The translations under genes and the position numbers were made by a program. 64,000 nucleotides of DNA from NCBI GenBank assembly GCA_963662175.1, contig OY759214.1, positions 103,006,115-103,070,114 of the forward strand, written 5' to 3'. The notes beneath the pieces are model-generated. The model worked only from the letters and a program-made list of their open reading frames with translations, was not told the DNA's origin and did not search any database. Origin of the DNA: Aradus depressus (taxonomy: Eukaryota > Arthropoda > Insecta > Hemiptera > Aradidae). Positions 5,639 to 57,551 of the stretch are shown piece after piece. Positions within the stretch are counted from its first letter, which is position 1; every line of letters starts with the position of its first letter.

Positions 5639-6624
5639 AGGGCTTGTTCTAAATGCTCCTGTTGCGACACGGATACCTTTATGATGGATGGCGTCGAGTA
5701 TTTCCAGATAGGATTTTCTCGCGGATCCGTACACGAAACAACAGTAGTCCATTTTGAAACATATGATGGCTTTGTATATCTTGATCAATGTTTCTCTATC
5801 AGAGCCCCAGTCCAAATTGCTCAAAAGATAAAGGATTTTCATGGAATTCGAGCATTTTTCCTTGAGGTACTTGATATGGGCTATCCAGTTTAATTTGGAG
5901 TCCAGAATTACTCCCAGGATACGGACTTGATTGAGATAGCGTATGGGGGTACTTTCAAATGTTATTACAGGATTTGTTAGAACGTTTCTTTTCCGGTGAA
6001 AGTGAACACAGCAAGTATTGTCCAAGGAGACTCTTAGTCCTGTTTCTTGCGACCACCTTTGCATTTTGTTGACTGTGTTTTGGAGGTTCGACTGGACATT
6101 TTTCATATTGTGTCCTCTACATATTATGGCGAAGTCATCTGCGTAGAGAAATCCTTGTACGTTTTTGTTAGACATTGATCAATTTTGTTTATAGCGATCA
6201 TGAAGAGGGTTGTGCTTAGAACACTTCCCTGTGGTACGACTTGGTTTTACATTTTTGAGCTTGACAGATTGTTACCAAGTAATACGCGGAAGGAGCGGTG
6301 TGTGAGAAAGCCTTTTATGAAAATTGGGAGACTACCTCTGAATCCCCAGGCAGACAGAGTCTTTAAGATGTCATATCGCCATGTTGTAACGAATGCTTTT
6401 GTGATGTCAAAAAATATTCCTATAGCTTCTTGTTTGTTGATGGATGCATCCTGTAGTACGGCTTCTATTTTTACCAGGTTATCAACCGTTCATCTCCTCT
6501 TCGGGAAGCCACATTGTAGATTAGAGAGTAACTATTCATTCTCTAGCTTCCAGGAAAGTCTCCTGTTGATCATCCTTTCCATGATCTTGCAGAGGCAGCA
6601 AAAGAGCGAGATAGGGCGATAGCT
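5639..6624 (-). pseudogene. NL-B copy 1, RT part of ORF2
   Basis: Minus-strand remnant of the same non-LTR family whose ORF2 is intact at 28388-32053. It covers the RT palm, including the catalytic YADD in a GFLYADDFAII context, and continues to the start of the thumb region. It is broken by frame changes near 6180. Homology to the intact copy stops abruptly at about 5639, so the RNase H domain and 3' end are missing. Element NL-C interrupts it at 6624, and its upstream half resumes at 10976. Confidence 0.85.
6608..6624. repeat. target-site duplication of NL-C (left)
   Basis: GAGATAGGGCGATAGCT, 17 bp, perfectly repeated at 10976-10992. It belongs to the NL-B coding sequence, which the intact copy shows uninterrupted near 30530-30550. 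Confidence 0.92.
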
Positions 6625-10701: not shown

Positions 10702-10975
10702 CTGGACTGGGCAAAGGGAGATGGGGTGGGGAGAGTACCCCCTCCACTAGGCCTTCCTAACGGCTTCCAACTACCACGTGCTTCTCACGATTCAAAAAAT
10801 TTGAAAAATGAAAATCTCGGTAAATCATGTTGAAATTTTGAATGTCACTTCTCTAAACGGAACCCTTAACAAAAATCCAATCTATTTGTGAAAACAAACA
10901 CGATTTGTAGGGAACACAAAAACACAAAATCTGAGCGGGTCAGACGTGATGTTCACCCTTCGGCTGCTGGGGCGA
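10702..10975 (-). other. NL-C 5' leader
   Basis: 274 bp between the 5' target-site duplication and the ORF1 start. In R1-type elements this region would hold an internal promoter. I see no TATA-like element at the 5' end. Confidence 0.6.
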
Positions 10976-10992
10976 GAGATAGGGCGATAGCT
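10976..10992. repeat. target-site duplication of NL-C (right)
   Basis: Second copy of the 17-bp duplication described at 6608-6624. Confidence 0.92.
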
Positions 10993-12640
10993 AGAAGGAT
11001 CTCGTTTATCTTTTCCAGGCTTGTGTATGGGTATAATGTAAGATTCTTTCCATCTTCTTCGGAATATCCCAGTTGCCCATATCTGGTTATATAATTGGAG
11101 TAAGGTTTGTAAGATTTCTGTAGGAAGATTTTTAACCAATTTATATACGATGTTATCGGGACCAGGAGATTTACCTTTAAGTTTTCTTAAGGCTGTTTCG
11201 AGTTCCCACGTGCTAAATGGTATATTGTAGTCTTCATTGTTGTCAACTGAAGTGAAGATGATGTCTTTTTTTTCTTCTTTATGCTTGTATTCAACAAATG
11301 ATGGGTCTGGTATTAGTTCGGATAGTACAAAGGTTTCAGCAAGTCGGTTGGCTACTTGTTTTTGATTAGAACGGAGTTTTCTGTTTATTTCGAGTATAAT
11401 TTGTGGAGTTACTTTTTTTCCCGAGATTGCTCTTATCATTTTCCATACTTGTTCTGAGGGAGTAGATGAGTTGATGCCTGAGATATAGTCTCTACAGCAA
11501 CTCATTTTACTCTCTTTTATAACTTTTCTGCTGATGGATTTTAGTTTTTTGTACTCTATGAGGTTGGTTCCTGTCATGTTTTCCTTGAACTTTCTGAGAG
11601 CTCTTCTTCTATTCCTTATACTTGTTTTACACTCATTGTTAAACCAGGGAAGAGGCTTTCTTTTGTATTGTTCAGACGTTCTGGGGATGGCTTCTCTTGC
11701 TGCAGAAAGGATGATATTCTCGAGAGACGCGCAGTTTTCCTCCGGGTCCATTGATCATTGGCTGTCCCTTACCATTAGGGTTTTGTATAGGTCCCAATCC
11801 GCCTGTTCCACGACCCATCGTCTTCTCCTTCCAGTCAACTCTACTTCGCTCTTTATCAGTGTTAGTGCCCAGGGAAGTGGTCACTGTTATATTGATCGGG
11901 CAGTGGGACCCATTGTGCATCCGTAGCCAGGGATCTGGAGCATGCACTTAGGTCTATTGCTGAGAAGGTTCCGTAGGCAGGGCTTAGGTAAGTTGGCTCT
12001 CCGCTGTTCAAGACGAGTAATTTTTTGGAGTCGAAGACTCTCTCAAGCATTGTCCCTCTGGAGGAGTTCGTCATCGATCCCCAGAGAGTGTTGTGGCCAT
12101 TAAAGTCACCCACTAAAAGTACAGGTCTTGGCAGCTGATCTATAAGGTTAATCAGTTCATTCTCCGAAGGGTTTTCAGATGGTGGAATGTAAATATTGCA
12201 TAAGATGAAGGGATGATCAGTATGGAGTCTGGTTGCTACAGCTTGGAGTTCTGTATTGAGTGTTAACATTTCAGCTGCTATTGCATTTAATATGAGGTTC
12301 AGGACGCCGCCGTGACCCTCGTCGGGTCCATCACAGTGGTGCACGTCAAAGTTTGGGATATTGACAGGATGGGTGTCTTTGAGGCGCGTCTCTTGCAGAC
12401 AAAAGCAGACAGGACCCTCTTCCTGGATGAGCAACTGTACCTCAGGATGGTGGGTTCTGTATCCGTTGCAATTCCACTGTATCACTTTAAGTGCCATTGG
12501 GATGAATAGGGGAGGTGAAGAGTTCCGCACCGACGAAGAGCCGCTGGTGAAAAATATTCGTTGGGATGTAATGAGTTATTGTTGTACGTGGGTATTGTTG
12601 AACAATTGTGTTAATATAATCAAAAGGAGTTATTGTTGCT
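10976..12640 (-). pseudogene. NL-B copy 1, endonuclease and N-terminal RT part of ORF2
   Basis: The frame begins at the ATG at 12497 (MALKVIQWNCNGYRT), the start used in the intact NL-B ORF2. It encodes an APE-type endonuclease (QETRL, GDFNGHNTLWGS, NSDHFP) followed by the linker and fingers of RT (PGPDNIVYKLV). A frame change occurs near 11870, just after the DHFP motif. Compared with the intact copy there are scattered substitutions, so this is an older copy. The upstream flank to about 12640 is NL-B leader sequence; its first ~100 bp are also present in the chimera. The downstream half was displaced by NL-C. Confidence 0.85.
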
Positions 12641-14275: not shown

Positions 14276-14636
14276 TCTCCAATTGTAAAGTTCCCACGTC
14301 CCGGGTAATCAGTTCTATGTTAGTCGATATCCCCGTGATTTGTTCGCTTAACTTTGTCCCCTGGTCAATGATCTTATTTTCCAATGACTGTCCCTGGTTT
14401 GTCATTTGTTGTACTAATGTCTGTCCTTGATTCGTAATTTTATTCTCTAATGACTGTCCCTGATTCGTAATCTGTGCTTGAAGAGCTTTGAACATAGCTT
14501 CCAAGTCGAATGTCGATTTTTCAGTAGGTGAAGGACTAGGTGTCACAACACGTCCTGCCTTCGCGGAACGCGTCTGTATGCTCTCCACATCTACCAGTCT
14601 CTCGTCTGACTTTCCCGCCTTACTTTTGCCCTCCAT
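14276..14636 (-). pseudogene. LTR-2 copy 1 gag, N-terminal fragment
   Basis: Encodes the first ~120 residues of LTR-2 Gag from the ATG at 14636, and is cut at 14276 by NL-B. After a basic, serine-rich start comes a coiled coil built of 11-residue repeats (ITNQGQSLENK, ITNQGQTLVQQ, MTNQGQSLENK, IIDQGTKLSEQ). Copy 2 at 16285 has one pair of repeats fewer. The matching plus-strand gag lies only 1.6 kb away, in opposite orientation. Confidence 0.85.
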
Positions 14637-27639: not shown

Positions 27640-28022
27640 AACTTTATTTCTGTTTCCAGTGCACAAAGCACTCTACACAGCAAAAAATAAAAAAATTAAA
27701 AAAAATAAATAGTTGAGTACAAAGTGTGCTGGTAAAGGCGAGGTTTTAGCCTTCTGTTTTGGGTTGGTTGGCCCAATCGATAAAATTGAGCTCTTGAGAC
27801 CAAAGACAGCCCTTCGTGGTGAGACGTGGTAATTCTTTTCAGGAATTCTGCGATATCTGGAAGGCCGGTTTCTCGACGAATTTGGGTGTTCCGGACGAAC
27901 CAGGGTGCGTTTACTGCCAAACGGAGAACCTTGTTTTCAAATCTTCGAAGTTTTTGAATGTTTGTTTTGTTTTTTGTTAGCCAGATGGGTGCTGCATATG
28001 TGAATAGTGGTCTGAGTAGAAT
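27640..28022 (-). pseudogene. NL-E, C-terminal end of ORF2 and 3' UTR
   Basis: The frame reads LLRPLFTYAAPIW and then FENKVLRLAVNAPWFVRNTQ, and ends at the stop at 27696. This is the C-terminal region of a jockey-type ORF2, closely parallel to NL-F at 43763-44008. It continues the NL-E sequence that breaks off at 34104, on the other side of the inserted NL-A/NL-B chimera. The 3' UTR extends to about 27640. Confidence 0.82.
28011..28022. repeat. target-site duplication of the NL-A/NL-B chimera (left)
   Basis: GGTCTGAGTAGA, 12 bp, repeated at 34104-34115. It encodes the LLRP segment of NL-E ORF2 on the minus strand. Confidence 0.9.
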
Positions 28023-28051
28023 AATTGAATTGAATAATTAGGGAATGAGGG

Positions 28052-28064
28052 CGCTCAACTGCTA
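28052..28064 (-). other. conserved 3'-terminal motif of NL-B
   Basis: GCAGTTGAGCGCC on the minus strand, 29 bp from the element end. NL-A has GCAGTTAAGCGCC at 57511-57523, 28 bp from its end. A likely recognition signal for the reverse transcriptase. Confidence 0.65.
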
Positions 28065-28387
28065 TGGTCATTTACGCCCGTCTTTCTTACACTCGTTAGA
28101 GGCACATATATCGGCTCAGGAACCAACTTTTACATGTTTTGTATATCATTAGTAGTATATATGTAAATGTCGTTTTATACGCATAATCTTATTATTCATT
28201 TTTTTTTTATTTTTTATTTTTTTTTTTATTATTATTTTTTATATATATATATATTTTTTTTATTAATATTATTATTTTTTTATTATTTTTTTTTTTTTTA
28301 TTATTATTATTATTGTTTTTTTTTTTTTTTCGTATATGTATATTATATACATATTATATTATTGTTATTATTTTTTTTTTCTACTAC

Positions 28388-31300
28388 TTATATTTTAGAA
28401 GTAAGTTCAGCTTCTTTAATAAAATTAATTACTTTGTTTATGGTATTCTTATCATCCCCTAGTGCTTCGGAGACATTCCCGGGAACGCCGTGTATTTCCA
28501 GGAGTCCCCGGTATCTAAGACAGTCTTCAAAGATGTGGCGGACTGTTATTTGCACGTTGCAGGTGGGACAGATGGGGGGATCCTCTCTGTTGATCAGGTA
28601 CCCGTGAGTTAGGCGGCTGTGTCCTATCCTGAGTCGTGCGATACACACCTCTTCTCTTCTGTTCTTCCGATAGCAGGACTTCCAATTGGTTACAGATCTC
28701 TTGATCATTTTCAATTTGTTGTCTTGTATTTCGCTCCACATAGACTGCCAGCTGTCATATATATTTGTGGCTAGTGGTTTAGCGTATTCCCGGGCGGAGA
28801 GACGAGTGGGGACCACTTCAAGGAGACTATGCGCTTCCTCTGCCGCACGATCTGCCCTTTCGTTACCCGGGATCCCCGAGTGACCTGGGACCCAGACGAA
28901 AGTGACCTCTTTCCCCATTTCTTTCAGCTGATAGACACAGTTCTGAATCTTATATACTAATGGGTGATCGCTGTACATATTGTCAATGGCAAGCATTGAG
29001 CTCAATGAGTCTGTGCAAATAGCTATATGTTTTTCTGGGGCAACCAAGGAATGATATAGAGCATGATAGATTGCCGTCAGTTCTGCAGTAAATATACTGC
29101 TGAGAGGATGTAGTTTGAACTTTCTCACCTCATTGCCATCTATGTATGCACAGGATGTTGAATCATTCGTTTTCGATCCATCGGTATATAATACTCGGGC
29201 TCCTTCCGTTTGCTCTAGTAGGGCGTACAGTTGTGGTAGATATACACCAGCTCCTCTCGCGGCAGATACTTTCAGTAGTTCAGTACAGCAATTGGGTCTC
29301 GGAAAGATCCAACAAGGTGTTACTTGATGCTCTGTGATTCTGGGAACTTCTTCCAGTTGGGTTATGACGCTTTTCAGCCGGATCCTTAGAGGCAGTGTAG
29401 GGTTTTTCGCGGTGTTGTACAGTCCTTGATATTTAGCCTTAAATATATATTTGTAGCAAAGATGCTCAGGATCGGAGTATACTTTGGCCATGTATCTTGA
29501 CCCCAATAAATGCCTCCGGAATATTAGGGGACAAATGCTGGATTCAGTACAAATACTCGCTATAGGGCTTGTTCTAAATGCTCCTGTTGCGACACGGATA
29601 CCTTTATGATGGATGGCGTCGAGTATTTCCAGGTAGGATTTCCTCGCGGATCCGTACACGAAACAACAGTAGTCCATTTTGGAACATATGATGGCTTTGT
29701 ATATCTTGATCAATGTTGCTCTATCAGAGCCCCAGTCCAAACTGCTCAAAAGATAAAGGATTTTCATGGAATTCGAGCATTTTTCCTTTAGGTACTTGAT
29801 ATGGGCTGTCCAGTTTAATTTGGAGTCCAGAATTACTCCCAGGAAACGGACTTGATTGACATAGCGTATGGGGGTACTTTCAAATGTTATTACAGGATTT
29901 GATAGAACGTTTCTTTTCCGGTGAAAGTGAACGCAGCAGGTCTTGTCCAAGGAGACTCTTAGTCCTGTTTCTTGCGACCACCTTTGTATTTTGTTGACTG
30001 TGTTTTGGAGGTTCGACTGGACATTTTTCATGTTGTGTCCTCTACATATTATGGCGAAGTCATCTGCGTAGAGAAATCCTTGTACGTTTTTTGTTAGGCA
30101 TTGGTCAATTTTGTTTATAGCGATCATGAAGAGGGTAGTGCTTAGAACACTTCCCTGTGGTACTCCTTGGTTTTGCGTTTTTGAGCTTGACAGAGTGTTA
30201 CCTAGTAATACTCGGAAGGAGCGGCGTGTGAGGAAGCCTTTTATGAAAATTGGGAGACTACCTCTGAATCCCCAGGCAGACAGAGTCTTTAAGATGTCAT
30301 AGCGCCATGTTGTATCGAAAGCTTTTGTGATGTCAAAAAAAATTCCTACAGCTTCTTGTTTGTTGATGAATGCATCCTGTAGTACGGCTTCTATTTTTAC
30401 CAGGTTATCGACCGTTGATCTCCTCTTCCGGAAGCCACATTGTAGGTTAGAAAGTAACTTTTCGTTCTCTAGCTTCCACGAGAGTCTCCTGTTGACCATC
30501 CTTTCCATGATCTTGCAGAGGCAGCAAGAGAGCGAGATGGGGCGATAGCTAGAAGGGTCTCGTTTATCTTTTCCAGGCTTGAGTATGGGTATAATGTAAG
30601 ATTCTTTCCATCTTCTTGGGAATATCCCAGTTGCCCATATCTGGTTATATAATTGGAGTAAGGCTTGTAAGATTTCTGTAGGAAGATTTTTAACCATTTT
30701 ATATACGATGTTATCGGGACCAGGAGATTTACCTTTAAGTTTTCTTAAGGCTGTTTCGAGTTCCCACGTGCTAAATGGTATATTGTAGTCTTCATTGTTG
30801 TCAACTGAAGTGAAGATGATGTCTTTTTTTTCTTCTTTATGCTTGTATTCAACAAATGATGGGTCTGGTATTAGTTCGGATAGTGAAAAGGTTTCAGCAA
30901 GTCGGTTGGCTACTTGTTTTTGATTAGAACAGAGTTTTCTGTTTATTTCGAGTATAATTTGTGGAGTTACTTTTTTTCCCGAGATTGCTCTTATCTTTTT
31001 CCATACTTGTTCTGAGGGAGTAGATGAGTTGATGCCTGAGATATAGTCTCTCCAGCAACTCATTTTACTCTCTTTTATAACTTTCCTGCTGATGGATTTT
31101 AGTTTTTTGTACTCTATGAGGTTGGTTCCTGTCATGTTTTCCTTGAACTTTCTGAGAGCTCTTCTTCTATTCCTTATACTTGTTTTACACTCATTATTAA
31201 ACCAGGGAAGAGGCTTTCTTTTATATTGATCAGACGTTCTGGGAATCGCTTCCCTTGCTGCAGAGAGGATGATATTCTCGAGAGACGCGCAGTTTTCTTC

Positions 31301-32053
31301 CGGGTCCATTGACCATTGGCTGTCCCTTACCATTAGGGTTTTGTATAGGTCCCAATCCGCCTGTTCCACGACCCATCGTCTTCTCCTTCCAGTCAACTCT
31401 ACTTCGCTCTTTATCAGTGTTAATGCAGGGAAGTGGTCACTGTTATATTGATCGGGCAGTGGGATCCATTGTGCATCCGTAGCCAGGGATCTGGAGCATG
31501 CACTTAGGTCTATTGCTGAGAAGGTTCCGTAAGCAGGACTAAGGTAAGTTGGCTCTCCGCTGTTCAAGACAAGTAATTTTTTGGAGTCAAAGACTCTCTC
31601 AAGCAGTGTCCCTCTGGGGGAGTTCGTCATCGATCCCCAGAGAGTGTTGTGGCTATTAAAGTCACCCACTAAAAGTACGGGTCTTGGTAGCTGATCTATA
31701 AGGTTAGTAAGTTCGTTCTCCGAAGGGTTTTCAGATGGTGAAATGTAAATATTGCATAAGGTGAAGGGATGATCAGTATGGAGTCTGGTTGCTACAGCTT
31801 GGAGTTCAGTATTGAGTGTTAACATTTCAGCTGCTATTGTATTTAATATGAGGTTCAGGACGCCGCCGTGACCCTCGACGGGTCCGTCACAGCGGTGAAC
31901 GTCAAAATTTGGGATATTGACAGGATGGGTGTCTGTGAGGCGCGTCTCTTGCAGACAGAAGCAGGCAGGACTCTCTTCCTGGATGAGCAACTGTACCTCG
32001 GGATGGTGGGTTCTGTATCCGTTGCAATTCCACTGTATTACTTTAAGTGCCAT
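28388..32053 (-). CDS. NL-B ORF2: endonuclease, RT, RNase H (intact, 1221 aa)
   Basis: Complete open frame. Residues 1-215 are an APE-type endonuclease (QWNCNG, QETRL, GDFNSHNTLWGS, NSDHFP). Residues about 440-740 are the RT (PGPDNIVYKMV, CGFRKRRSTVDNL, PQGSVLS, catalytic YADD at about 662). An RNase H follows at about 953-1075 (YTDGSKT, FTAELTAIYHAL, CTDSLSS, GNERADRAA). A C-terminal CCHC finger (CPTCNVQITVRHIFEDC) is near residue 1157. Presence of RNase H places it in the I-type group rather than in typical jockey or R1 clades. All catalytic motifs are present, so the protein may be active. Start chosen at the QWNCNG-containing N terminus. Confidence 0.93.
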   Translation of the reverse strand: MALKVIQWNCNGYRTHHPEVQLLIQEESPACFCLQETRLTDTHPVNIPNFDVHRCDGPVEGHGGVLNLILNTIAAEMLTLNTELQAVATRLHTDHPFTLCNIYISPSENPSENELTNLIDQLPRPVLLVGDFNSHNTLWGSMTNSPRGTLLERVFDSKKLLVLNSGEPTYLSPAYGTFSAIDLSACSRSLATDAQWIPLPDQYNSDHFPALTLIKSEVELTGRRRRWVVEQADWDLYKTLMVRDSQWSMDPEENCASLENIILSAAREAIPRTSDQYKRKPLPWFNNECKTSIRNRRRALRKFKENMTGTNLIEYKKLKSISRKVIKESKMSCWRDYISGINSSTPSEQVWKKIRAISGKKVTPQIILEINRKLCSNQKQVANRLAETFSLSELIPDPSFVEYKHKEEKKDIIFTSVDNNEDYNIPFSTWELETALRKLKGKSPGPDNIVYKMVKNLPTEILQALLQLYNQIWATGIFPRRWKESYIIPILKPGKDKRDPSSYRPISLSCCLCKIMERMVNRRLSWKLENEKLLSNLQCGFRKRRSTVDNLVKIEAVLQDAFINKQEAVGIFFDITKAFDTTWRYDILKTLSAWGFRGSLPIFIKGFLTRRSFRVLLGNTLSSSKTQNQGVPQGSVLSTTLFMIAINKIDQCLTKNVQGFLYADDFAIICRGHNMKNVQSNLQNTVNKIQRWSQETGLRVSLDKTCCVHFHRKRNVLSNPVITFESTPIRYVNQVRFLGVILDSKLNWTAHIKYLKEKCSNSMKILYLLSSLDWGSDRATLIKIYKAIICSKMDYCCFVYGSARKSYLEILDAIHHKGIRVATGAFRTSPIASICTESSICPLIFRRHLLGSRYMAKVYSDPEHLCYKYIFKAKYQGLYNTAKNPTLPLRIRLKSVITQLEEVPRITEHQVTPCWIFPRPNCCTELLKVSAARGAGVYLPQLYALLEQTEGARVLYTDGSKTNDSTSCAYIDGNEVRKFKLHPLSSIFTAELTAIYHALYHSLVAPEKHIAICTDSLSSMLAIDNMYSDHPLVYKIQNCVYQLKEMGKEVTFVWVPGHSGIPGNERADRAAEEAHSLLEVVPTRLSAREYAKPLATNIYDSWQSMWSEIQDNKLKMIKRSVTNWKSCYRKNRREEVCIARLRIGHSRLTHGYLINREDPPICPTCNVQITVRHIFEDCLRYRGLLEIHGVPGNVSEALGDDKNTINKVINFIKEAELTSKI

Positions 32054-32565
32054 TGGGATGAATAGGGGAGGTGAGGAGTTTCGCGCCGACGAAGAGCTGC
32101 TGGTGAAAAGTATTCATTGGGATTTATTAGTAACTTCGCTTCCGCTAATTGTTGCCAGATACCATTACAATTCCACTGCAGGAGATTTGTTATGTGATTC
32201 ATACTTTAAAGATAGAAGAATATATGGAAGATGTAAGAAAAACTTTGGCTAAATAAATGGTTACAGTAAAAAGGCCAATAAGGTGAGTATGATAATGGGA
32301 TGGGTAAAGATTAATAATAATATAAGTACATAATGTAATCACGAATTCACCTTCATTGCTAACAATCATGAGAGGTTCCAAGGATATGTAATAATGGTTA
32401 GATATCTTATTTAATAAAATACAACTCAATGGTAATAGGGACGGGGTGTAGAGGATAATAATTCTATTGAGGATAAGCAGGAGGGACTTAGTAATATTAG
32501 TATTCCTATATATATTAGTATTCCTATATATTAGTATTCCTGTCATAGTAATAATAGTATTCTTA
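32054..32565 (-). other. spacer between ORF1 and ORF2 with the chimera junction
   Basis: 512 bp. On the minus strand, after the ORF1 stop comes a short ORF starting MNHITNLLQWNCNGI, which looks like the NL-A ORF2 start. It runs about 60 codons, to 32031. From ~32130 downward the sequence matches the leader of NL-B copy 1 (12497-12570). Confidence 0.8.
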
Positions 32566-33852
32566 TTATGTGCCACTGCCACTATCAATAGCAGTGTTGG
32601 CATTTCTCTCTTTTTTGTATTTCTTTTTCTTATTTATGTCTTTAAGATAGATTGTTACTGGTTTAACCTTGGGAGGCTCTGCTGAGACCTCCATAAGGGA
32701 AGTATCTGATGTGTCCCCGTCAGAGAGAACACTGGATTGGGGACGAGAGGGAAGGGGAGGGGGGGAGGTTGAGGGGAGGGGTAATGGGATGGGAAGGGAG
32801 GGGGTGGTGGTGGGGGGAGAGCCAGCACTTGATCTAGGTGGGAGGGATTTGGGGGTTTTTGTTTTATCAATGTTATCTGTTAGTATGTTTTCAGTCTGAA
32901 CAGCCATGTCAGCGACTCGAGGCTTCTGCCAAGTTCGCTCTGATCCAAATTTAAATAAAGATTCTTTACTTTCTGTTTCATTTCCTACCTTCTGAGCATA
33001 GGACTTACTAAAGGTTGGAGCCTGTCTTTCTTTATATAATTTTTTAGCGTTCCCATAGGGTATCTTTTCTGTTACTTGTATCTCTTTGATGGCAATCTCT
33101 TGGAGATATCTGGGACATTCTCTGGACCAACACGAATGTTTACCACCGCAGTTGGCACAAAACAAATCTCTAGTGCAGGGTGCTCCTTCGTGTAAAGGTA
33201 GGCTACACTTATCACAAATAGGGTTTTTTTTACAGTTAAATTTAATATGACCGTATTGAAAACATGAAAAACATCTCATCGGGGATGGTATGAATTTCCT
33301 GACCTTCACAGAGTAGAAACCTACTTTCAGTATTTCTGGAACTACTGGGATAGAGAAAGTGATAATGAAACTGTTTGTGTTGGTAGGTACACCAGTCTTT
33401 TTTGAAATTATTCTTTTTACACTAGTGACTAATTGTGCTTCCAATTCTTTATGAATTTCTTCATCAGAAAAGTCTGCTAAATCAAAACATGTAATAATCC
33501 CTTTTGAACTATTTAAAGTACGATGGGGTTCTACTTTAATTTGGACCTGATCATAGAAGGAAGTCATTTGTAATAACTTTCTGGATTGACTAGTATTTTT
33601 TGTCTCTACAAGTAGTGTCCCGTTTCTCAACTTCTTTATATGTTTCACTTCACCCACAGCTCCTATTATAGCTTTATTAATGAGAAAAGGTGAGACTTTG
33701 AGGAGGTCGCCTTCTCCATCTCTAGAAATTACTAGAAAATTTGGGACAGGTTCCACATGTGAACCTTTTGCTTGGGGGTCTATTTCTTTTAGTAAGCTGT
33801 CTAGGCATCTTTTTCTTCTTTTCATTTTAACGATATCCGGGGGAAGATTCAT
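32566..33852 (-). CDS. NL-A ORF1: Gag-like RNA-binding protein (intact, 428 aa)
   Basis: Open frame with a basic N terminus, a central domain, and three zinc knuckles at about residues 193-250 (CFSCFQYGHIKFNC, CDKCSLPLHEGAPC, CANCGGKHSCWSREC). A proline/serine-rich region (PPTTTPSLPIPLPLPSTS) and a lysine-rich C-terminal end follow. Three knuckles are typical of I-, jockey- and R1-type ORF1 proteins, which coat the element RNA. Residues 1-345 are almost identical to the NL-A copy at 53312, which points to recent spread of NL-A. Confidence 0.9.
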   Translation of the reverse strand: MNLPPDIVKMKRRKRCLDSLLKEIDPQAKGSHVEPVPNFLVISRDGEGDLLKVSPFLINKAIIGAVGEVKHIKKLRNGTLLVETKNTSQSRKLLQMTSFYDQVQIKVEPHRTLNSSKGIITCFDLADFSDEEIHKELEAQLVTSVKRIISKKTGVPTNTNSFIITFSIPVVPEILKVGFYSVKVRKFIPSPMRCFSCFQYGHIKFNCKKNPICDKCSLPLHEGAPCTRDLFCANCGGKHSCWSRECPRYLQEIAIKEIQVTEKIPYGNAKKLYKERQAPTFSKSYAQKVGNETESKESLFKFGSERTWQKPRVADMAVQTENILTDNIDKTKTPKSLPPRSSAGSPPTTTPSLPIPLPLPSTSPPPLPSRPQSSVLSDGDTSDTSLMEVSAEPPKVKPVTIYLKDINKKKKYKKERNANTAIDSGSGT

Positions 33853-34103
33853 TATTGTTCAAAAACCAGCTGTGTAGAGTTAATACACGTAGGAGAAAAA
33901 TACGTAGTGTACACAGCGAAAAAAGAGAAAAACAAATACAACCAAAGAAAAGAAAAAGAAAAAGAAAAAAGAAAAACAATAACAAAACAAATAAATAAGT
34001 ATATATAGAAAGAAATTAAAGGTTACTCCCTGGTCTATCGGTAATTCCAATTTTCAGAGAGCTCACAACACAACCTATCTCGACGAGATCTCAACACACA
34101 CTC

Positions 34104-34115
34104 GGTCTGAGTAGA
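34104..34115. repeat. target-site duplication of the NL-A/NL-B chimera (right)
   Basis: Second copy of GGTCTGAGTAGA. Confidence 0.9.
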
Positions 34116-34317
34116 GATGTGTAGAGAAGAATGCTGCAAGTGTACTTGAGTGGCGATCTTCTGTTGATGAGGGGGTATAGTTGCGATAGTCTGGTATATG
34201 CTTGCGTGAGTTTGTTGTTTATGTGGTGATTCCATGTTAATTTTGTGTCCAAGTGAATTCCAAGATATTTAATTGTTTCGTGGTTAGGAATGTAGTCTAT
34301 GACAACGTTGTTCATGT
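34116..34317 (-). pseudogene. NL-E ORF2 segment between two insertions
   Basis: Encodes HETIKYLGIHLDTKLTWNHH and CSILLYTSLLRP, the post-RT region of a jockey-type ORF2. It links the RT part at 35120 to the C-terminal part at 28022 once both insertions are accounted for. Confidence 0.82.
34304..34317. repeat. target-site duplication of NL-D (left)
   Basis: AACGTTGTTCATGT, 14 bp, repeated at 35120-35133. Confidence 0.88.
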
Positions 34318-35119
34318 TTTTTTTTTTTTTTTTTTTTTTTTGTTTTTTTTGTGTGGAGGGAGGTGAAAAACCTTTGATAGGCGAACATATGACAAGATGA
34401 CAGTAGTCACTGGACAGTGTGAGAGTCTCCCTCATTGGGACTACTCACTAAAAAACACCTCCCTGTATCCTCTCCTGCCTCATTATCCCCGTGGAACCGC
34501 CATCACGCATTACTTCACGGGGGAGGCTCTAGCTGACGCTCTCCCTCAAAGACAACTAAGCATTACTCAATTCCACGCTTCTCCATCTCTCGGAGCTTCC
34601 TGAGGACTTCCGCAGCATACCCGCCGACCGCAGTCCACTTCTCCTGCGACTCCAGCATGCAGCTCACTAGGGTCTCCGGCGTGAGCGGCTCACCTAGAAC
34701 TCTTTCGAGCTCATGACGCTCCTCGCTGAAGCGAGCACACTGGAAGAATATGTGCTTAACATCTTCCTTTGCTCCGCAGCAGTGTGGACAGTCCGGGTCT
34801 TCTACTCGTTTAAATCTGAACAGGTATGCCCGGAAACACCCGTGCCCAGACAGAAGTTGGGTCAGGTAGTACCCTACTTCACCGTGGGGCCGGTTTACCC
34901 ACTTCTCAATATTCAATATTAATCGGCGGGTCCACCTGCCATTCGGTGAATTTTTCCACCTTGTTTGCCACTGTTGCAGGCTGGTCTTCCTTTCTTCCTC
35001 TCGGATCTGTATTTTTTCTGCTTGATCGGTCGTGCGTCGCAGATAAAGCCTCTGGCGCTCTTCCGCAGTGATGTCTATCGGGGGCATTCCAGCTATGACG
35101 CACACAGCATCACCGGACA
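34318..35119 (-). mobile_element. NL-D, 5'-truncated R1-type insertion
   Basis: An 802-bp minus-strand insertion with a T-rich tail at 34318-34350 on the plus strand, framed by a 14-bp target-site duplication. It retains only the 3' end of ORF2 and the 3' UTR. Severe 5' truncation of this kind is typical of target-primed reverse transcription that stops early. Confidence 0.88.
34563..35119 (-). pseudogene. NL-D ORF2 C-terminal fragment
   Basis: About 185 codons that end at 34563. Recognisable are LLSGHGCFRAYLFRFKR and the finger CPHCCGAKEDVKHIFFQC, parallel to the C-terminal end of NL-C ORF2. The RT is absent. The frame itself is uninterrupted, so the truncated insertion is fairly young. Confidence 0.85.
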
Positions 35120-35133
35120 AACGTTGTTCATGT
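35120..35133. repeat. target-site duplication of NL-D (right)
   Basis: Second copy of AACGTTGTTCATGT. Confidence 0.88.
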
Positions 35134-36370
35134 GTAGTTTTGTCAATGTGGTAGTGTCTATTCTTCGAAGAGAGAAAATGTTGGCCCCCGTTTTGGCAGC
35201 ATTAAGCCTAAGTTTCCACCTGTTGAACCAATACGCCAAGACTTCCACACATGGTTGAAGGATATCCACGGCTGAAGACAGTTCTCGGTGTTGTGATATT
35301 AGCAAGGTGTCATCAGCGTAGGTAGCCAACAGCTCTGTGGGCGCATTAGGCATATCATGGCAGTAGAGGTTAAACAGAATGGGGCTAAGGATAGCACCCT
35401 GGGGAACACCCGCTTGAATCAGCTTCTTCTCACTGAAACTGGAGTTTATTTGGATCTGAAAAGTTCTGCACTTGAGGAAGTCCGAAACTATTTCATAGAT
35501 GTACGAAGGAACTCCAGTCCTCCTGAGCTTATACCGCAGTCCGTCGTGCCACACGCTGTCGAAGGCTGCAGCTATATCGAGAATAATAATTTCCCGGTTT
35601 GGGTATTAGTATGACCACAGCATTTTTCCACTGATGTGGAAAGTACCCATACCGGAGGCAGCTATTAAGGACACTAGTGAGATAAGCAACAGCTTTGGTC
35701 GACAGATTCCTCAAAACGATATTGGGTATAAGGTCATCTCCCGGTGCCTTTCGTAGAGGCAGTTTGGTAATGTGGTCAGTAAGTTCAGCGGGAGTTGTGA
35801 ATTTCATTGGGAGTTCTACTGAGAAGATGGGTTGTGAAACGCGATGAGTGATGTCTTGTGAGTCTCTGGTAGTGTTGTCAGGTGATTTGAAGAGGTTTTC
35901 CAGATGGGAGGCGAATGCTGTGCATTTTTCGTCGTCAGTCAGTGCTGTTTGTCCGGAGTATGTTAGTGAGGATATGGAATGTGTTTGTTTTAAAATACGT
36001 CTCGTCTGTTTGTACAGGTTGGGATCACCTGGAGTCATATCTCCCAGATATTTGCGGTAATTGTCAATCCGGAGAGAGTCCAATTCCCATTTTACTTGTC
36101 GAGTTAGTCTGTTAAAATGCCGTTTAACTTCTGGATCACGGGTTCGCTGCCATAAATGTAGTATATGGTTTTTTTCTTGAATGAGGTTAGAATGTATGAA
36201 GGTGTTGTGTAGGATGTACGTTGTCTAGGGTCCTTGTTTATTCTGTAGGTGGCTTTATCAACTGACGTATAAATGGCTGTGGTAAAGTGTGTTACTGATG
36301 TTTCTATGTCTTCTGTAGTTGTGTAATGAAGTGGTATGTTTAGCGAGTTGTCAAGTTCAAAGCGAAACGT
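35120..36370 (-). pseudogene. NL-E ORF2, reverse transcriptase part
   Basis: Several frames cover the RT: LRKAPGDDLIPNIVLRNLST, VWHDGLRYKLRRTGVPSY, QAGVPQGAILSPILFNLYC, catalytic TYADDTLLISQH, then FNRWKLRLNAAKTG. Frame changes occur near 35550 and 36190, and an in-frame TAG lies at 36374-36376 at the boundary with the endonuclease. No RNase H follows, as in the jockey clade. Confidence 0.87.
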
Positions 36371-36373
36371 GTC

Positions 36374-37099
36374 CTAGTTAATTTTGCCAGTAAGAAGTTT
36401 AGGAGGGGGAGAAGTCGTCTGTATGTCGTCTTGGAATGTGACGATAACGGGGACATGATCGGAGTCAAGTTCTGGAATTGGAGTCTGAAAAATTGTGTAG
36501 TTCAGATTATGGAGGATGGCGATGTCTAAAATGTCAGGTGAGTAGCGTTGTTGTGTGGGATAGAATGTGGATTGGTCCGGGGCAGACACCAGGAGACCGA
36601 GCCTATTGCCAATGTCGAGGAGCCGTCGACCACCGCTGTTATTCACCCTGCATCCCCAGTACTGGTGCTTGCAATTGAGGTCACCGAGCATGATGGTATG
36701 AACTCCAGTAAAGGCGTTTTCCAAATCGGACTGGGCCAGCTGATGCTGAGGAAGTTTATATGCCGCCAGAATGTTAAATCTGAAATGGGAAACAGTGATT
36801 ATACATATCCCAGCTATCTCTAAATTAAGCATACCTCCCAGGTCGAGCTCATGATGCTTGAGACTTCGTTTCACGCAGATTGCCACCCCACCGCTTCGAG
36901 TGTTCTTACCTTTCCGATAGATTTTGTACCCTGGAAGTCTGAAGCCTTCTTCCGGATCTAGGTGTGTTTCCGATATGCAGGCAATGTCGATGTCGTGGCG
37001 ACGGAGGAAGTCGAGAACAGCAAGACGCTGCCGCTTTATTCCGTCTGCATTCCAGTTAACGATAGTAATTTTAACTGGAAACAAATTAGGGGAATACAT
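36374..37099 (-). pseudogene. NL-E ORF2, endonuclease part
   Basis: From the ATG at 37099, 241 codons of an APE-type endonuclease: ITIVNWNADGIK, CISETHLDPEEG, MLGDLNCKHQYWG, PDILDIAIL, DSDHVPVIVTF. The frame is open up to the TAG at 36374-36376. The start overlaps the ORF1 stop by 14 bp, exactly as in NL-F. It would nick target DNA. Confidence 0.88.
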
Positions 37100-38265: not shown

Positions 38266-38775
38266 CTTGCTCTCCTTTCCAGTGTTGGGCCTTCACAATG
38301 CTTCAGATCAGCTGTTAAAGAGCTTGCTCTCCTTTCCTGTGTTGGCCCCCACAATACTTCAGATCAGCTGTTAAAGAGCTTGCACTCCTTTCCTGTGTTG
38401 AGCCCTCACAACCCCTCAGATCAGCTGTTAAAGAGCTTGCTCTCCTTTCCTGTGTTGGGCCCCCAGAACCCTTCAGATCAGCTGTTAAAAACCTTGCTCT
38501 TCTTTCCTGTGTTGGGCCCTCACAACCCCTCAGATCAGCTGTTAAAGAGCTTGCCCTCCTTTCCTGTGTTGGGCCCTCACAATGCTTCAGATCAGCTGTT
38601 AAAGAGCTTGCTCTCCTTTCCTGTGTTGGCCCCCACAACCCCTCAGATCAGCTGTTAAAGAGCTTGCTCTCCTTTCCTGTGTTGGGCCCCCACAACCCTT
38701 GAGATCAGCTGTTAAAGAGCTTGCACTCCTTTTTTGAGTAAGACCCCCACAACCCTCCTGATCAGCTGTTTAGGC
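38266..38775. repeat. 57-bp tandem repeat, nine copies
   Basis: GATCAGCTGTTAAAGAGCTT recurs every 56-57 bp from about 38306 to 38703, with a weaker last copy at 38760. Each unit also contains ctcctttcctgtgttgg. Units differ by a few bases. The 107-residue ORF readable on the minus strand is a by-product of a unit length divisible by three. Confidence 0.92.
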
Positions 38776-42635: not shown

Positions 42636-42702
42636 GCAACAATTGTGAAGTTGCCTCCTTCCTAATTAGTAGATGAGTCCAGTTATACCAATTACTTGGT
42701 AT

Positions 42703-43234
42703 CAGTCACTATAAACATTCAATCAACCACTCATAGTGGTCAGTCACTATAAACATTCAATCAACCACTGATAGTGGTCAGTTACTATAAACATTCAATC
42801 AACCACTCATAGTGGTCAGTCACTATAAACATTCAATCAACCACTGATAGTGGTCAGTCATTATAAACATTCAATCAACCACTGATAGTGGTCAGTCATT
42901 ATAAACATTCAATCAACCACTCATAGTGGTCAGTCACTATAAACATTCAATCAACCACTCATAGTGGTCAGTCACTATAAACATTCAATCAACCACTGAT
43001 AGTGGTCAGTCATTATAAACATTCAATCAACCACTCATAGTGGTCAGTCATTATAAACATTCAATCAACCACTCATAGTGGTCAGTCACTATAAACATTC
43101 AATCAACCACTGATAGTGGTCAGTCATTATAAACATTCAATCAACCACTCATAGTGGTCAGTCACTATAAACATTCAATCAACCACTCATAGTGGTCAGT
43201 CACTATAAACATTCAATCAACCACTCATAGTGGT
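42703..43234. repeat. 38-bp satellite, 14 exact-length units with a hairpin core
   Basis: Fourteen units of exactly 38 bp: CAGTCACTATAAACATTCAA then TCAACCACTSATAGTGGT. Each contains ACCACT-S-ATAGTGGT, an inverted repeat with a three-base loop. Two positions vary between units (cac/cat in the first part, S = C or G at the hairpin centre). No spacers, so not CRISPR-like. A truncated 15th unit starts at 43235. Confidence 0.95.
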
Positions 43235-43568
43235 CAGTCATTATAATCAACCACCAAAGTCCTTCTCTCTTCTAACAAAAATAACAGTTTAAAAATAAAT
43301 TAGAGTCGTGACTCGTACTTTGAACGGTCAACACGTATTACAAGTCGCTCTGTTAAAAAAAGTATCTTATATAGTTTTTTTTTTTTTGGTTAAATGTTTG
43401 TTGTCATTGTTATTTCTGTTTGTTTTTCTTAATCATGACAAGTTTTTTTTGTTTATCGTGAGTACATTTCAACATTCATATTTTATTTTGGAGTGTTTTC
43501 GTCTTTGGAGGTTTTGCAAGTTGGTTCCTGCCAAGCATGGAGAAAATTAGGCAGTAAGTGCGTAAATA
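43235..43568. other. unassigned sequence
   Basis: AT-rich, no feature recognised. Confidence 0.5.
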
Positions 43569-53065: not shown

Positions 53066-53311
53066 GAGGAGTGTGTGTTGAGATCTCGTCGAGATAGGTT
53101 GTGTTGTGAGCTCTCTGAAAATTGGAATTACCGACAGACCAGGGAGTAACCTTTAATTTCTTTCTATATACTTATTTATTTGTTTTGTTATTGTTTTTCT
53201 TTTTTCTTTTTCTTTTCTTTGGTTGTATTTGTTTTTCTCTTTTTTCGCTGTGTACACTACGTATTTTTCTCCTACGTGTATTAACTCTACACAGCTGGTT
53301 TTTGAACAATA

Positions 53312-54349
53312 ATGAATCTTCCCCCGGATATCGTTAAAATGAAAAGAAGAAAAAGATGCCTAGACAGCTTACTAAAAGAAATAGACCCCCAAGCAAAAGG
53401 TTCACATGTGGAACCTGTCCCAAATTTTCTAGTAATTTCTAGAGACGGAGAAGGCGACCTCCTCAAAGTCTCACCTTTTCTCATTAATAAAGCTATAATA
53501 GGAGCTGTGGGTGAAGTGAAACATATAAAGAAGTTGAGAAACGGGACACTACTTGTAGAGACAAAAAATACTAGTCAATCCAGAAAGTTATTACAAATGA
53601 CTTCCTTCTATGATCAGGTCCAAATTAAAGTAGAACCCCATCGTACTTTAAATAGTTCAAAAGGGATTATTACATGTTTTGATTTAGCAGACTTTTCTGA
53701 TGAAGAAATTCATAAAGAATTGGAAGCACGATTAGTCACTAGTGTAAAAAGAATAATTTCAAAAAAGACTGGTGTACCTACCAACACAAACAGTTTCATT
53801 ATCACTTTCTCTATCCCAGTAGTTCCAGAAATACTGAAAGTAGGTTTCTACTCTGTGAAGGTCAGGAAATTCATACCATCCCCAATGAGATGTTTTTCAT
53901 GTTTTCAATACGGTCATATTAAATTTAACTGTAAAAAAAACCCTATTTGTGATAAGTGTAGCCTACCTTTACACGAAGGAGCACCCTGCACTAGAGATTT
54001 GTTTTGTGCCAACTGCGGTGGTAAACATTCGTGTTGGTCCAGAGAATGTCCCAGATATCTCCAAGAGATTGCCATCAAAGAGATACAAGTAACAGAAAAG
54101 ATACCCTATGGGAACGCTAAAAAATTATATAAAGAAAGACAGGCTCCAACCTTTAGTAAGTCCTATGCTCAGAAGGTAGGAAATGAAACAGAAAGTAAAG
54201 AATCTTTATTTAAATTTGGATCAGAGCGAACTTGGCAGAAGCCTCGAGTCGCTGACATGGCTGTTCAGACTGAAAACATACTAACAGATAACATTGATAA
54301 AACAAAAACCCCCAAATCCCTCCCACCTACATCAAGTGCTGGCTCATAA
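53312..54349 (+). CDS. NL-A copy 2 ORF1, C-terminally truncated (345 aa)
   Basis: Nearly identical to residues 1-345 of the protein at 32566-33852, with the three zinc knuckles (CFSCFQYGHIKFNC, CDKCSLPLHEGAPC, CANCGGKHSCWSREC). The stop comes three bases after the deletion joint (…SSAGS), so the proline-rich and lysine-rich end is lost. It may still bind RNA. Confidence 0.85.
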   Translation: MNLPPDIVKMKRRKRCLDSLLKEIDPQAKGSHVEPVPNFLVISRDGEGDLLKVSPFLINKAIIGAVGEVKHIKKLRNGTLLVETKNTSQSRKLLQMTSFYDQVQIKVEPHRTLNSSKGIITCFDLADFSDEEIHKELEARLVTSVKRIISKKTGVPTNTNSFIITFSIPVVPEILKVGFYSVKVRKFIPSPMRCFSCFQYGHIKFNCKKNPICDKCSLPLHEGAPCTRDLFCANCGGKHSCWSRECPRYLQEIAIKEIQVTEKIPYGNAKKLYKERQAPTFSKSYAQKVGNETESKESLFKFGSERTWQKPRVADMAVQTENILTDNIDKTKTPKSLPPTSSAGS

Positions 54350-54378
54350 AGCTAACGTACTGCTCTAAGAGAGAACAA

Positions 54379-57300
54379 ATGTTCACCGGACCAAAGTGGA
54401 AAGTTGACAAAGCGGATTGGGACCTTTTTAGGGAGTTGGCAGTATTGGAAGAGGAATCCTTTCCTACTGATGCTGACAGTCTCACCTCTTATGTCACCTC
54501 GGTAATAACTGCGGCTGCCCACCTATCCATCCCAAAAAGTCTACCTGGAGAGAGGAAAAAACGAGTGCCTTGGTTTGATACAACCTGCCGAAAAGCTATC
54601 AAAGACAGGCGGAGAGCACTAAAAAATTTCCAAAACTACCCCACTACACTAAACCTCATTGAATACAAAAAGCTCAGAGCCATATGTAGAGACACTATGA
54701 GAGAAAAAAAGCGAGCCTCATGGAGAAACTACGTTTCCTCAATAAGCAGTAATACACCGATAGCAACAGTCTGGAAAAGAATAAGAACTCTCACCGGAAA
54801 ACGCACCTATGAAACGCCGATCCTCCAATCAAATGGCGACATGATCTATGATCCTAAAACCATTGCAAACATTTTTTCTGACTCTTATAGTAATACCTCT
54901 GCCTCAAGAAATTTTCCAGCTGAGTTTATCCAGGCTAACGAGAAGAAGAAGACCACTCCACCGAACTTTGAAGAATTCGATGAAGAATATTATAATAAAG
55001 ACCTCACGGAATGGGAACTGAGCACCGCGATAAACGAATCAAAAAAAACCGCATGTGGACCAGACGAGATCCACAACGAAATGTTAAAAAACTTGACCCA
55101 GCAGTCTAAGAGATGTCTACTGGCTTTCTATAACCGACTATGGAAACAAAGAGTTTTTCCTCAGGCTTGGCGAGATGCCGAAATCCTCCCCTTTCTAAAA
55201 CCAGGGAAGGACAAGTTGCGGGCGGCTAGTTACAGACCTGTATCTCTCACTAGCTGCCTCTGCAAGATGCTCGAGAAAATGGTAAACAAAAGGCTTCTGT
55301 GGTACCTAGAAAAAAACGAATTGCTAGCCAAAATACAGTGTGGGTTTCGCAAAGACAGGTCCACCTTAGATCACCTCGTCTCAATGGAAGCAGAGATCCA
55401 GAACACTTTCATCTTGAAGGAAGAAGCGATAGGGGTCTTTTTTGACCTGAAAAATGCATATGATACTGTTTGGAGACCTGGTATCTTGGAGCAAATCCAT
55501 GAGTGGGGCCTTAGAGGAAACCTTCCTATTTTTATCCAGAACTTCCTATACCAGAGATTCATTCAGGTGAGAGTGGGCGATAAGCTTTCGTATAAAAGAC
55601 AGCAAGAGAATGGCATACCACAAGGCAGTGTCCTCAGTTGTACTTTGTTTGCCATTGCAATTAATAAAATAAGCTCTGTATTCTCATCACCATGTATAAA
55701 AGCCTTTCTTTTTGTGGATGACCTGAGTATATTATACAGATATAAAGTTTCTCGCGAAATGGAACAACGTTTGAACTCTGTATTAAGTATGCTTCACAAC
55801 TGGTCGACAGAAAATGGTTTCAGTTTCTCGATTGAGAAAACACACTGTGTCCACTTTAGCAGAAAAAGGAAGCCAAGTGGTGACCCAATAATAAGACTGG
55901 GAGGCAAGCTAATCACCTTCAGAGACGAAACCAACTTTCTGGGCCTCATTTTTGACAAAAAACTTTCTTGGATAAACCATATAAAATATATCAAAGAAAA
56001 CTGCATGAAAAGGCTAAATATAATGAGAATCCTTTCTCATACAACGTGGGGCTCTGATCGCCAGACGCTGCTAAAGATCTACTCAGCTATAATCCGATCC
56101 AAATTAGACTACGCCAGTTTTGTATATGCGTCAGCCAGAAAGAGCTACCTCACTTTGTTGGACACAGTCCATTATACCGGATTGAGGCTAGCAACAGGGG
56201 CTTTCATAACATCGCCCACGGTGAGCCTATGTGCGGAGACTGGCTTGCCACCTCTGCTTTTCCGTAGACACAGTTTGGCATGCAATTATATTGCATCCCT
56301 ATCCATGCAGAGGGATAACCCAGCCTATGAATATGTTTTTCACCCAGAACACCTCCGAATTTATGATAGGCATCCCAGGGCAACGTTACCTTTGGCATTG
56401 AGAGCCAGGCAGTATATACTGGACCTTCTTAACATTGAACCTATAAAGATCGAGGTGGAGCATCCACCTTGGACTTTCCCTCGGCCTACCCTCATGCTGC
56501 AGCTATTAATGAAAGACAAAAAGGAAACACCTCCATATATCTACAGAAACCTTTTTAAAGAACTTGGGGAAAGATTGCTTCAACGTCAAATAATTTTCAC
56601 AGATGGCTCTAAGTGCGGAAATGAAGTGGGCTATGCAGTAGTGATGGGTGACAAAGCTTACAAATATAAGCTAACCCATCAATGCAGCATCTACACTGCA
56701 GAACTTTGTGCAATCGCGGCTGCTCTCCACATGATAATGGCGGTAGAAGGGAAATTTTTTCTAATTTGTTCGGACTCCTTATCAGCGCTCCAGGGCATTG
56801 TAGCCCTCTACAACAAGAACAACCTGATATGCAAAATACAGCAATACGTGGCCTTGCTAGACCAGTTAGGGAAAAATGTAATTTTTTGCTGGATTCCATC
56901 GCATGTGGGAATTACAGGGAACGAGAAGGCAGATCTTGCTGCAAAAGAGGCAGCAACCTCAACTGGAGAACCTCGAAAAGTATTTGAAAGAGAAGATCTT
57001 AAACGTTGGCTCCAACACAAAATAAGACAAGCTTGGCAGGAGATGTGGGAGGCTGTACCAGACAACAAGTTAAAGTGCATCAAGGGTCATGTCAAGCCGT
57101 GGAGCTCATCCGTAAGAAACGAAAGGCAAGAAGAAGTGGCCCTCATGCGTCTGCGGATGGGACATATAAAACTAACACACGGACATCTGCTGAACCGAAG
57201 GGAGGCCGCAAGCTGTGAGAAGTGTGGAGTGGAGGTCGTTACAGTTCGCCATATACTGGAAGAATGTCCAGGGTATCAGATCCCCACTGTACCTCGGCAG

Positions 57301-57387
57301 CTGACTGAAATCTTGGGAGACGATCCTCGCCGCATCGACACCTTGATGGTATATCTTAGACAATCTGGGCTCATCAATAATATCTAA
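54379..57387 (+). CDS. NL-A ORF2 without endonuclease: RT, RNase H (1002 aa)
   Basis: Open frame whose ATG is an internal methionine just downstream of the deleted endonuclease. The RT shows GPDEIHNEMLKNL, CGFRKDRSTLDHL, GIPQGSVLSCTLF and the catalytic segment AFLFVDDLSIL at about residue 445, that is FVDD instead of the usual YADD. RNase H is at about 738-865 (FTDGSKCGNE, YTAELCAIAAAL, CSDSLSALQ, GNEKADLAA). A finger follows at about 945 (CEKCGVEVVTVRHILEEC). Without endonuclease it could only prime at existing DNA ends. Confidence 0.88.
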   Translation: MFTGPKWKVDKADWDLFRELAVLEEESFPTDADSLTSYVTSVITAAAHLSIPKSLPGERKKRVPWFDTTCRKAIKDRRRALKNFQNYPTTLNLIEYKKLRAICRDTMREKKRASWRNYVSSISSNTPIATVWKRIRTLTGKRTYETPILQSNGDMIYDPKTIANIFSDSYSNTSASRNFPAEFIQANEKKKTTPPNFEEFDEEYYNKDLTEWELSTAINESKKTACGPDEIHNEMLKNLTQQSKRCLLAFYNRLWKQRVFPQAWRDAEILPFLKPGKDKLRAASYRPVSLTSCLCKMLEKMVNKRLLWYLEKNELLAKIQCGFRKDRSTLDHLVSMEAEIQNTFILKEEAIGVFFDLKNAYDTVWRPGILEQIHEWGLRGNLPIFIQNFLYQRFIQVRVGDKLSYKRQQENGIPQGSVLSCTLFAIAINKISSVFSSPCIKAFLFVDDLSILYRYKVSREMEQRLNSVLSMLHNWSTENGFSFSIEKTHCVHFSRKRKPSGDPIIRLGGKLITFRDETNFLGLIFDKKLSWINHIKYIKENCMKRLNIMRILSHTTWGSDRQTLLKIYSAIIRSKLDYASFVYASARKSYLTLLDTVHYTGLRLATGAFITSPTVSLCAETGLPPLLFRRHSLACNYIASLSMQRDNPAYEYVFHPEHLRIYDRHPRATLPLALRARQYILDLLNIEPIKIEVEHPPWTFPRPTLMLQLLMKDKKETPPYIYRNLFKELGERLLQRQIIFTDGSKCGNEVGYAVVMGDKAYKYKLTHQCSIYTAELCAIAAALHMIMAVEGKFFLICSDSLSALQGIVALYNKNNLICKIQQYVALLDQLGKNVIFCWIPSHVGITGNEKADLAAKEAATSTGEPRKVFEREDLKRWLQHKIRQAWQEMWEAVPDNKLKCIKGHVKPWSSSVRNERQEEVALMRLRMGHIKLTHGHLLNRREAASCEKCGVEVVTVRHILEECPGYQIPTVPRQLTEILGDDPRRIDTLMVYLRQSGLINNI

Positions 57388-57510
57388 TAATAATATTAAA
57401 AAAACAAAAAACAATTACATGAGACACTAAAGGATTTATATTAACTGCAGATACATGTATTCATATAATTTCTATTACTAAATAATTTGATACACGGTGC
57501 TAAAAACCAT

Positions 57511-57523
57511 GCAGTTAAGCGCC
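57511..57523 (+). other. conserved 3'-terminal motif of NL-A
   Basis: GCAGTTAAGCGCC, 28 bp before the element end. Matches 12 of 13 positions of the NL-B motif at 28052-28064. Confidence 0.65.
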
Positions 57524-57551
57524 AAAAAAAACTATTCCTATCCTATCCTAT

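Follow-up and report, generated by a model that had tools for sequence, protein, structure and literature searches.

The 64,000-nucleotide stretch of the Aradus depressus genome studied here (contig OY759214.1, positions 103,006,115 to 103,070,114, hereafter the window) contains a complete non-long-terminal-repeat (non-LTR) retrotransposon that, judged from its sequence, is a chimera of two families of long interspersed nuclear elements (LINEs), here called NL-A and NL-B. The same joint between the two families was found at no fewer than 16 loci of the genome, and the chimera is thus a propagating family. We consider it probable that this is a young recombinant LINE family descending from one founder, which arose when a reverse transcriptase (RT) switched strands from NL-B RNA to NL-A RNA.

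The element joins parts of two LINE families

The hybrid is flanked by a 12-bp target-site duplication (TSD), GGTCTGAGTAGA, at 28009–28020 and 34104–34115. A first-pass annotation of this DNA had recognized the duplication and given its right copy correctly, but had placed the left copy at 28011–28022, two bases off, and the element therefore spans 28021–34103. Upon excision of the hybrid in silico, a Jockey-like ORF2 (open reading frame 2) of the host element, NL-E, was seen to span the closed site in 52 tblastn high-scoring segment pairs, using a query set of 130 mostly related proteins. This continuity indicates one insertion into NL-E, as had been proposed.

The proposed composition, with 2 kb of NL-A at the 5′ end and 4.1 kb of NL-B at the 3′ end, agreed with the identity of each half to separate copies. 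Sense positions 1–1285 of the hybrid were 99.0% identical over 1,285 bp to an NL-A copy starting at 53069 in the window, and a full-length NL-A copy elsewhere in the genome (L044) matched the hybrid as far as sense position 1982. The 3′ part was 95–96% identical to an NL-B copy in the window (5639–12570), with the match stopping at 32126; upstream of the equivalent of that position the NL-B copy has unrelated DNA, holding a decayed ORF1 of its own. The earlier placement of the joint near 32130 could be refined to the dinucleotide AT at 32122–32123, which is the sole agreement between the parents there. Directly 5′ of the joint the hybrid reads MNHITNLLQWNCNGIWQQLAEAKLLIN, followed by NL-B sequence. 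The ORF2 of L044 opens with the same 27 residues as a 54-codon stub ORF in the hybrid and then continues EYQPAFFCLQESH, showing that this stub is the broken start of the NL-A ORF2.

Table 1. Features of the hybrid element, its insertion site and the copies of its parent families in the window (UTR, untranslated region; aa, amino acids)
Feature	Position	Strand	Remarks
Complete hybrid non-LTR retrotransposon	28021..34103	(-)	5′ end 34103, 3′ end 28021
NL-A-derived part: 5′ UTR, ORF1, spacer, first 27 codons of NL-A ORF2	32122..34103	(-)	1.98 kb
NL-B-derived part: about 70 bp ahead of ORF2, ORF2, 3′ UTR with ATTCA-type tail	28021..32123	(-)	4.1 kb
ORF1, 428 aa, NL-A type	32566..33852	(-)	CCHC-like knuckles by eye
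54-codon stub ORF: NL-A ORF2 start running into NL-B sequence	32038..32202	(-)	Stop ends 16 nt into ORF2
ORF2, 1221 aa, NL-B type: endonuclease, RT, RNase H	28388..32053	(-)	Pfam
TSD copy, element 3′ side	28009..28020	(.)	GGTCTGAGTAGA
TSD copy, element 5′ side	34104..34115	(.)	GGTCTGAGTAGA
NL-E (host element) with its Jockey-like ORF2, 5′ flank of the insertion	34116..37084	(-)	tblastn
Host element NL-E, continuation 3′ of the insertion	27744..28020	(-)	tblastn
NL-A copy, internally deleted between ORF1 codon ~345 and a point past the endonuclease	53069..57551	(+)	TSD CCTTGATATATA 53054-53065
NL-B copy, 5′ part of ORF2	10976..12570	(-)	Decayed own ORF1 upstream at 14116-14304
Same NL-B copy, RT part	5639..6624	(-)	Separated from the part above by another element (6625-10975)

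The joint is shared by many dispersed copies

The genome of which the window is part (697.7 Mb in 74 contigs), where all counts of repeats are lower bounds, was searched with a 500-bp query over the joint. This yielded at least 27 matches, of which 14 were whole (including that of the window), two were partial but spanning, six were NL-A-only, all starting at query base 222, and five were NL-B-only, ending at 223 or 226. The search for copies spanning 32100–32160, as proposed in the first-pass annotation, hence revealed the joint at 16 loci or more, with the whole query covered at 14; these loci lie on 10 contigs and have different flanks. Thirteen of these copies were full-length, one was partly masked, one had an internal deletion of 600 bp and one was 5′-truncated. 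The 12 full-length hybrids other than that of the window were 98.9–99.9% identical to it. TSDs of 11–13 bp, all different, were found at 14 of the 16 loci, and 12 of these 14 started with TC (p about 1e-12 at a 7% background). ORF1 (428 aa) and ORF2 (1221 aa) of the window copy were both open, as annotated, and both ORFs were open in 10 of the 13 full-length hybrids, with ORF1 broken in two and ORF2 in one. The cautious suggestion that the chimera might itself be mobile was supported, and more strongly than it had been put, with 16 loci forming a propagating family.

Mean pairwise divergence among the 13 full-length hybrids was 0.27% for the 5′ part and 0.24% for the 3′ part, the latter computed without the low-complexity 3′ UTR, or about 0.25% overall. 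Relative to the four near NL-A copies (coverage of the stretch is partial in three), the hybrids had one fixed substitution in the 5′ part, with L044 taken alone differing at 9 of 1,973 sites; compared with the nearest NL-B copy, L022, 15 of 3,735 columns were fixed. Two hybrid subfamilies were distinguished at four sites of the 5′ part (three substitutions and one inserted T), where one subfamily matches NL-A and the other has a derived state, which points to a single origin. These data fit one recent origin of the hybrid.

Among the 14 of 16 copies having an open ORF2, we counted 19 nonsynonymous and 25 synonymous changes in this frame (77% nonsynonymous expected, p 1.5e-6), a deficit suggesting that ORF2 was constrained while the hybrid spread. 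The open ORFs together with this constraint give indirect evidence that the hybrid may move by its own proteins.

Both parent families persist in the same genome

Both parents were also found apart, continuing past the joint (NL-A in L043–L047 and NL-B in L022–L024). It had been considered earlier that full-length NL-A elements might normally carry the NL-B ORF2; instead, the five NL-A copies that read across the joint have their own, different ORF2, which is open in two of them (1226 and 1225 aa). These two, L043 and L045, are 5′-truncated, and the frames of L044 are broken. An ORF1 of NL-B's own was present in L022, L023 and L024. The two families are distant, with 41.5% amino acid identity between their ORF2s and 40–46% between their ORF1s, depending on the stretch compared; in a quick tree the two ORF2s each joined other database proteins before each other, with support values of 99 and 96 in the Shimodaira–Hasegawa-like approximate likelihood ratio test (SH-aLRT).

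The hybrid accounted for 16 of the matches in the joint region, versus six for NL-A and five for NL-B. NL-A-type 5′ ends at ≥98% made up 16 of 26 matches, 14 being hybrid and two NL-A (with the masked copy left out), while NL-B's own ORF1 was found at ≥96% in four copies (25 matches in all). Full matches to the end of ORF2 numbered 28 (40 scored of 57 candidates), and 16 of these were hybrids. With its majority among joint-region, 5′-end and ORF2-end matches, the hybrid was encountered more often than any other young form.

The TSD of the full-length NL-B copy L022, read by eye, also starts with TC (TCAGTTTTAACA). The tails of these elements are short repeats and not poly(A), being of an ATTCA type in NL-B and the hybrid and of a TATCC type in NL-A. 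The NL-B copy of the window is interrupted at 6625–10975 by a different non-LTR element, having about 25% amino acid identity to the hybrid ORF2.

At first sight the NL-A copy at 53069 resembled another hybrid, one carrying a third kind of ORF2. That candidate was rejected, as the ORF2 it carries is the one proper to NL-A (99.3% to L044) and its junction was spanned by one of 36 genome matches, indicating a one-off internal deletion. This copy and one of the hybrids (L042) carry independent deletions that break after the same base, window 32819 (sense 1285) and 54345, at the 5′ edge of a C-rich tract in ORF1; L046 has extra sequence nearby. The edge of this tract is a possible hotspot for strand switching.

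How the hybrid may have arisen

The probable course of events, in our view, would be as follows. Both parents would have been active when the founder formed, in one event; their activity is inferred from the low divergence. The NL-B RT would have started at the 3′ end of NL-B RNA and copied toward the 5′ end until, about 70 nt ahead of the ORF2 start, it switched to an NL-A RNA, inside the NL-A ORF2, and then proceeded along this second template as far as the NL-A 5′ end. The resulting element would keep a matched pair of RT and 3′ UTR from NL-B, and would gain the promoter and ORF1 of NL-A. Transcription of the hybrid would proceed from the NL-A promoter, its RNA would be packaged by the NL-A ORF1 protein, and insertion would be carried out by the NL-B ORF2 protein through target-primed reverse transcription, with TC at the edge of the duplication. 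More speculatively, ORF2 might be reached via the stub by termination-reinitiation, which the position of the stub stop, 16 nt into ORF2, would suit. Strand switching is one of three mechanisms discussed for recombinant L1 elements of the mouse (PMC3600994).

The rival to be weighed most carefully is a nested insertion, in which a 5′-truncated NL-B landed just inside the ORF2 of an NL-A element in the same direction, whereupon a transcript running from the NL-A promoter to the NL-B 3′ end was mobilized by the NL-B protein. Such a route for shuffling of ORF1 was proposed by Metcalfe and Casane (PMC4120745), and the joint does lie at the ORF1/ORF2 boundary, where their model predicts it. Truncated NL-B-type copies are probably abundant, since eight of the 28 full ORF2-end matches lie outside the 27 joint-region matches, and the founder could be lost or missing from this assembly. 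However, no interruption at the joint was seen in any of the six NL-A copies that include the sequence immediately beyond it (ten further NL-A matches past the joint comprise three near copies starting 197 or 346 bases beyond it and seven distant ones), and NL-A has no TC at 11–15 nt before the joint, in contrast to the TC start of 12 of the 14 hybrid TSDs. On these two grounds the strand switch is favoured and is the best explanation of the formation step, while we regard the nested insertion as improbable but not negligible. Several points nevertheless weigh against the strand switch. The founding locus was not found in the genome, and the evidence for the formation step is the joint itself. 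Nor was the direct NL-B donor found: L022 is full-length but 15 fixed columns off, with its ORF2 broken after codon 1033, and none of the parent copies read has both ORFs open. Switching strands internally, through a homology of 2 bp, is rarer than a jump to the end of an RNA; a broken NL-A RNA would remove this difficulty, but has to be assumed. Two of the 14 TSDs do not start with TC, leaving room for a nested insertion without it. As to the spread of the hybrid, the test of selection on ORF2 ignores transition bias and the tree, and the changes in ORF1, two nonsynonymous and two synonymous among 11 open copies, are too few to show constraint.

Less probable than a nested insertion would be a joining of transcripts or of DNA before reverse transcription, by read-through, trans-splicing or end-joining. 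The nearly nil homology at the joint (AT) resembles that of end joining, but the parents have no GT or AG splice signal at this position, and joining of DNA must hit two working copies and leave both ORFs whole. The first-pass annotation had suggested a template jump of the RT during insertion at the window site. A jump is what we find best supported for the founding event; at this site it is refuted by the joint being common to 16 loci, which makes the window copy an ordinary descendant, and nothing speaks for it there beyond the joint itself, so that we assign it practically no probability. We think equally little of the structure being the normal state of NL-A or NL-B, with the other copies as oddities, or a product of misassembly. 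One near NL-A (L044) and one NL-B (L022) were the full-length copies read end to end, and both are mutated, as such a reading would allow; but it is refuted, as five NL-A copies have their own ORF2, NL-B has its own ORF1 in three copies, and the hybrid holds a dead stub of the NL-A ORF2. Against a misassembly, the 16 loci are spread over 10 contigs and have different flanks.

Coding content, relatives and surroundings

Pfam domains of ORF2 were Exo_endo_phos_2, RVT_1 and RNase_H, in that order, and such an order of endonuclease, RT and RNase H, together with the TSDs, is what is expected of the I-like group of non-LTR elements with an apurinic/apyrimidinic endonuclease (APE). In the RT placement, using a tree without a clade reference set, one named relative, ‘i-11 aae’ (P0084), was distant on a long branch. 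ORF1 had no match in a Pfam search; its cysteine patterns, seen by eye, are CCHC-like and may be zinc knuckles. The two QWNCNG motifs annotated at 32161 and 32018 were both present. The stub was found open in 15 of the 16 hybrid copies, the exception being L040, in which the search word was not found, but its conservation proves little with copies that are near-identical. An Rfam scan at gathering cut-offs gave no match, and the predicted RNA fold of the ORF1 C-rich tract was unremarkable (z −0.51).

Relatives found by protein search numbered 10 for ORF1 and 176 for ORF2 (120 of the latter listed), with top identities of 43–48%; the named relatives among the matches listed were mostly from invertebrates. 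A search with ORF2 of viral-contig and genome-contig collections outside this genome found no locus. A third related family was seen at L050 (G000:C13:22005500-22012499), with both ORFs open. Twenty matches to the NL-B ORF1 at 68–70%, including the L050 locus and with 14 having the same score, look like a homogeneous young family. The L050 ORF1 is nearer to NL-B (146 of 270 columns) than to NL-A (124), whereas its ORF2 is nearer to NL-A (602 of 1,207) than to NL-B (477). An older ORF1 swap was considered, but the ORF1 data remain compatible with the grouping seen for ORF2 (approximately unbiased test, p 0.41) and such a swap is not claimed.

NL-E seems to be split a second time, by an insert of about 800 bp at 34315–35120 that contains an ORF of 185 aa and has a run of T at one of its ends. 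The window also holds tandem arrays at 42702–43246, 38266–38770, 47962–48149 and 57647–58095, with units of 38, 57 and 96 bp. Two of the arrays share the 96-bp unit, and one of these two adjoins a 0.7 kb segment (48150–48855) that is repeated at 52361–53065 (99%).

Comparison with known recombinant elements and implications

New LINE families formed by recombination are known from the mouse, where recombinant L1 families (L1MdTf, L1MdGf and others) include three Tf families with a common breakpoint, and where strand switching is likewise among the mechanisms proposed (PMC3600994). The exchange described there stays among L1 families, while the present joint is non-homologous and links the ORF1 and ORF2 of families whose ORF2 proteins share about 41% identity, each parent also persisting as a separate element. 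The R2/R1 hybrid SIDEs (short internally deleted elements) of Drosophila are also fusions of the 5′ and 3′ parts of two non-LTR elements that have multiplied, with a TSD typical of the 3′ donor, but they are described as non-autonomous and located at the R1 site of ribosomal DNA (PMC3414825), unlike the dispersed hybrid with its two complete ORFs. Whole ORF1s also move between lineages in the reticulate evolution of CR1/L2 elements, a case inferred from phylogeny (PMC4120745), whereas here the joint, both parents and the amplification can be seen. Swaps of ORFs between human and mouse L1 retained 60–69.5% of parental activity at about 35% identity in ORF1 and 63% in ORF2 (PMC3091869); foreign ORF1 and ORF2 proteins cooperated there as well, in laboratory constructs as opposed to a hybrid that has spread naturally. 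Chimeric insertions of L1 with other RNAs, proposed to renew the 5′ ends of LINEs (PMC13174262), offer a further likeness. Among the titles listed in a literature search, with many journals outside its coverage, none concerned the present hybrid. Recombinant LINEs are thus known, and what is new is a natural swap of a whole ORF1 between distant families, found together with its parents and amplified progeny.

It is possible, although we hold it as a tentative idea more doubtful than not, that the swap was advantageous, so that a distant promoter and ORF1 placed on the NL-B ORF2 and 3′ end out-multiplied both parents, perhaps with the stub feeding ribosomes to ORF2. In the papers considered here, shuffling of ORF1 was deduced from phylogenies or engineered experimentally. 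In the present genome, elements related to the donor and to the acceptor can be inspected alongside the joint and the progeny, and all of these carry few mutations. This makes it possible to test both the need for matched ORF1 and ORF2 proteins in LINEs and the roles of strand switching versus nested insertion in the formation of new families. If the swap was indeed advantageous, exchange of whole ORF1s by strand switching would serve LINEs as a functioning path of adaptation, observed here within about 0.25% divergence of its origin. The presence of the hybrid at 16 or more loci shows that distantly related retrotransposition machineries can exchange parts and remain able to spread.

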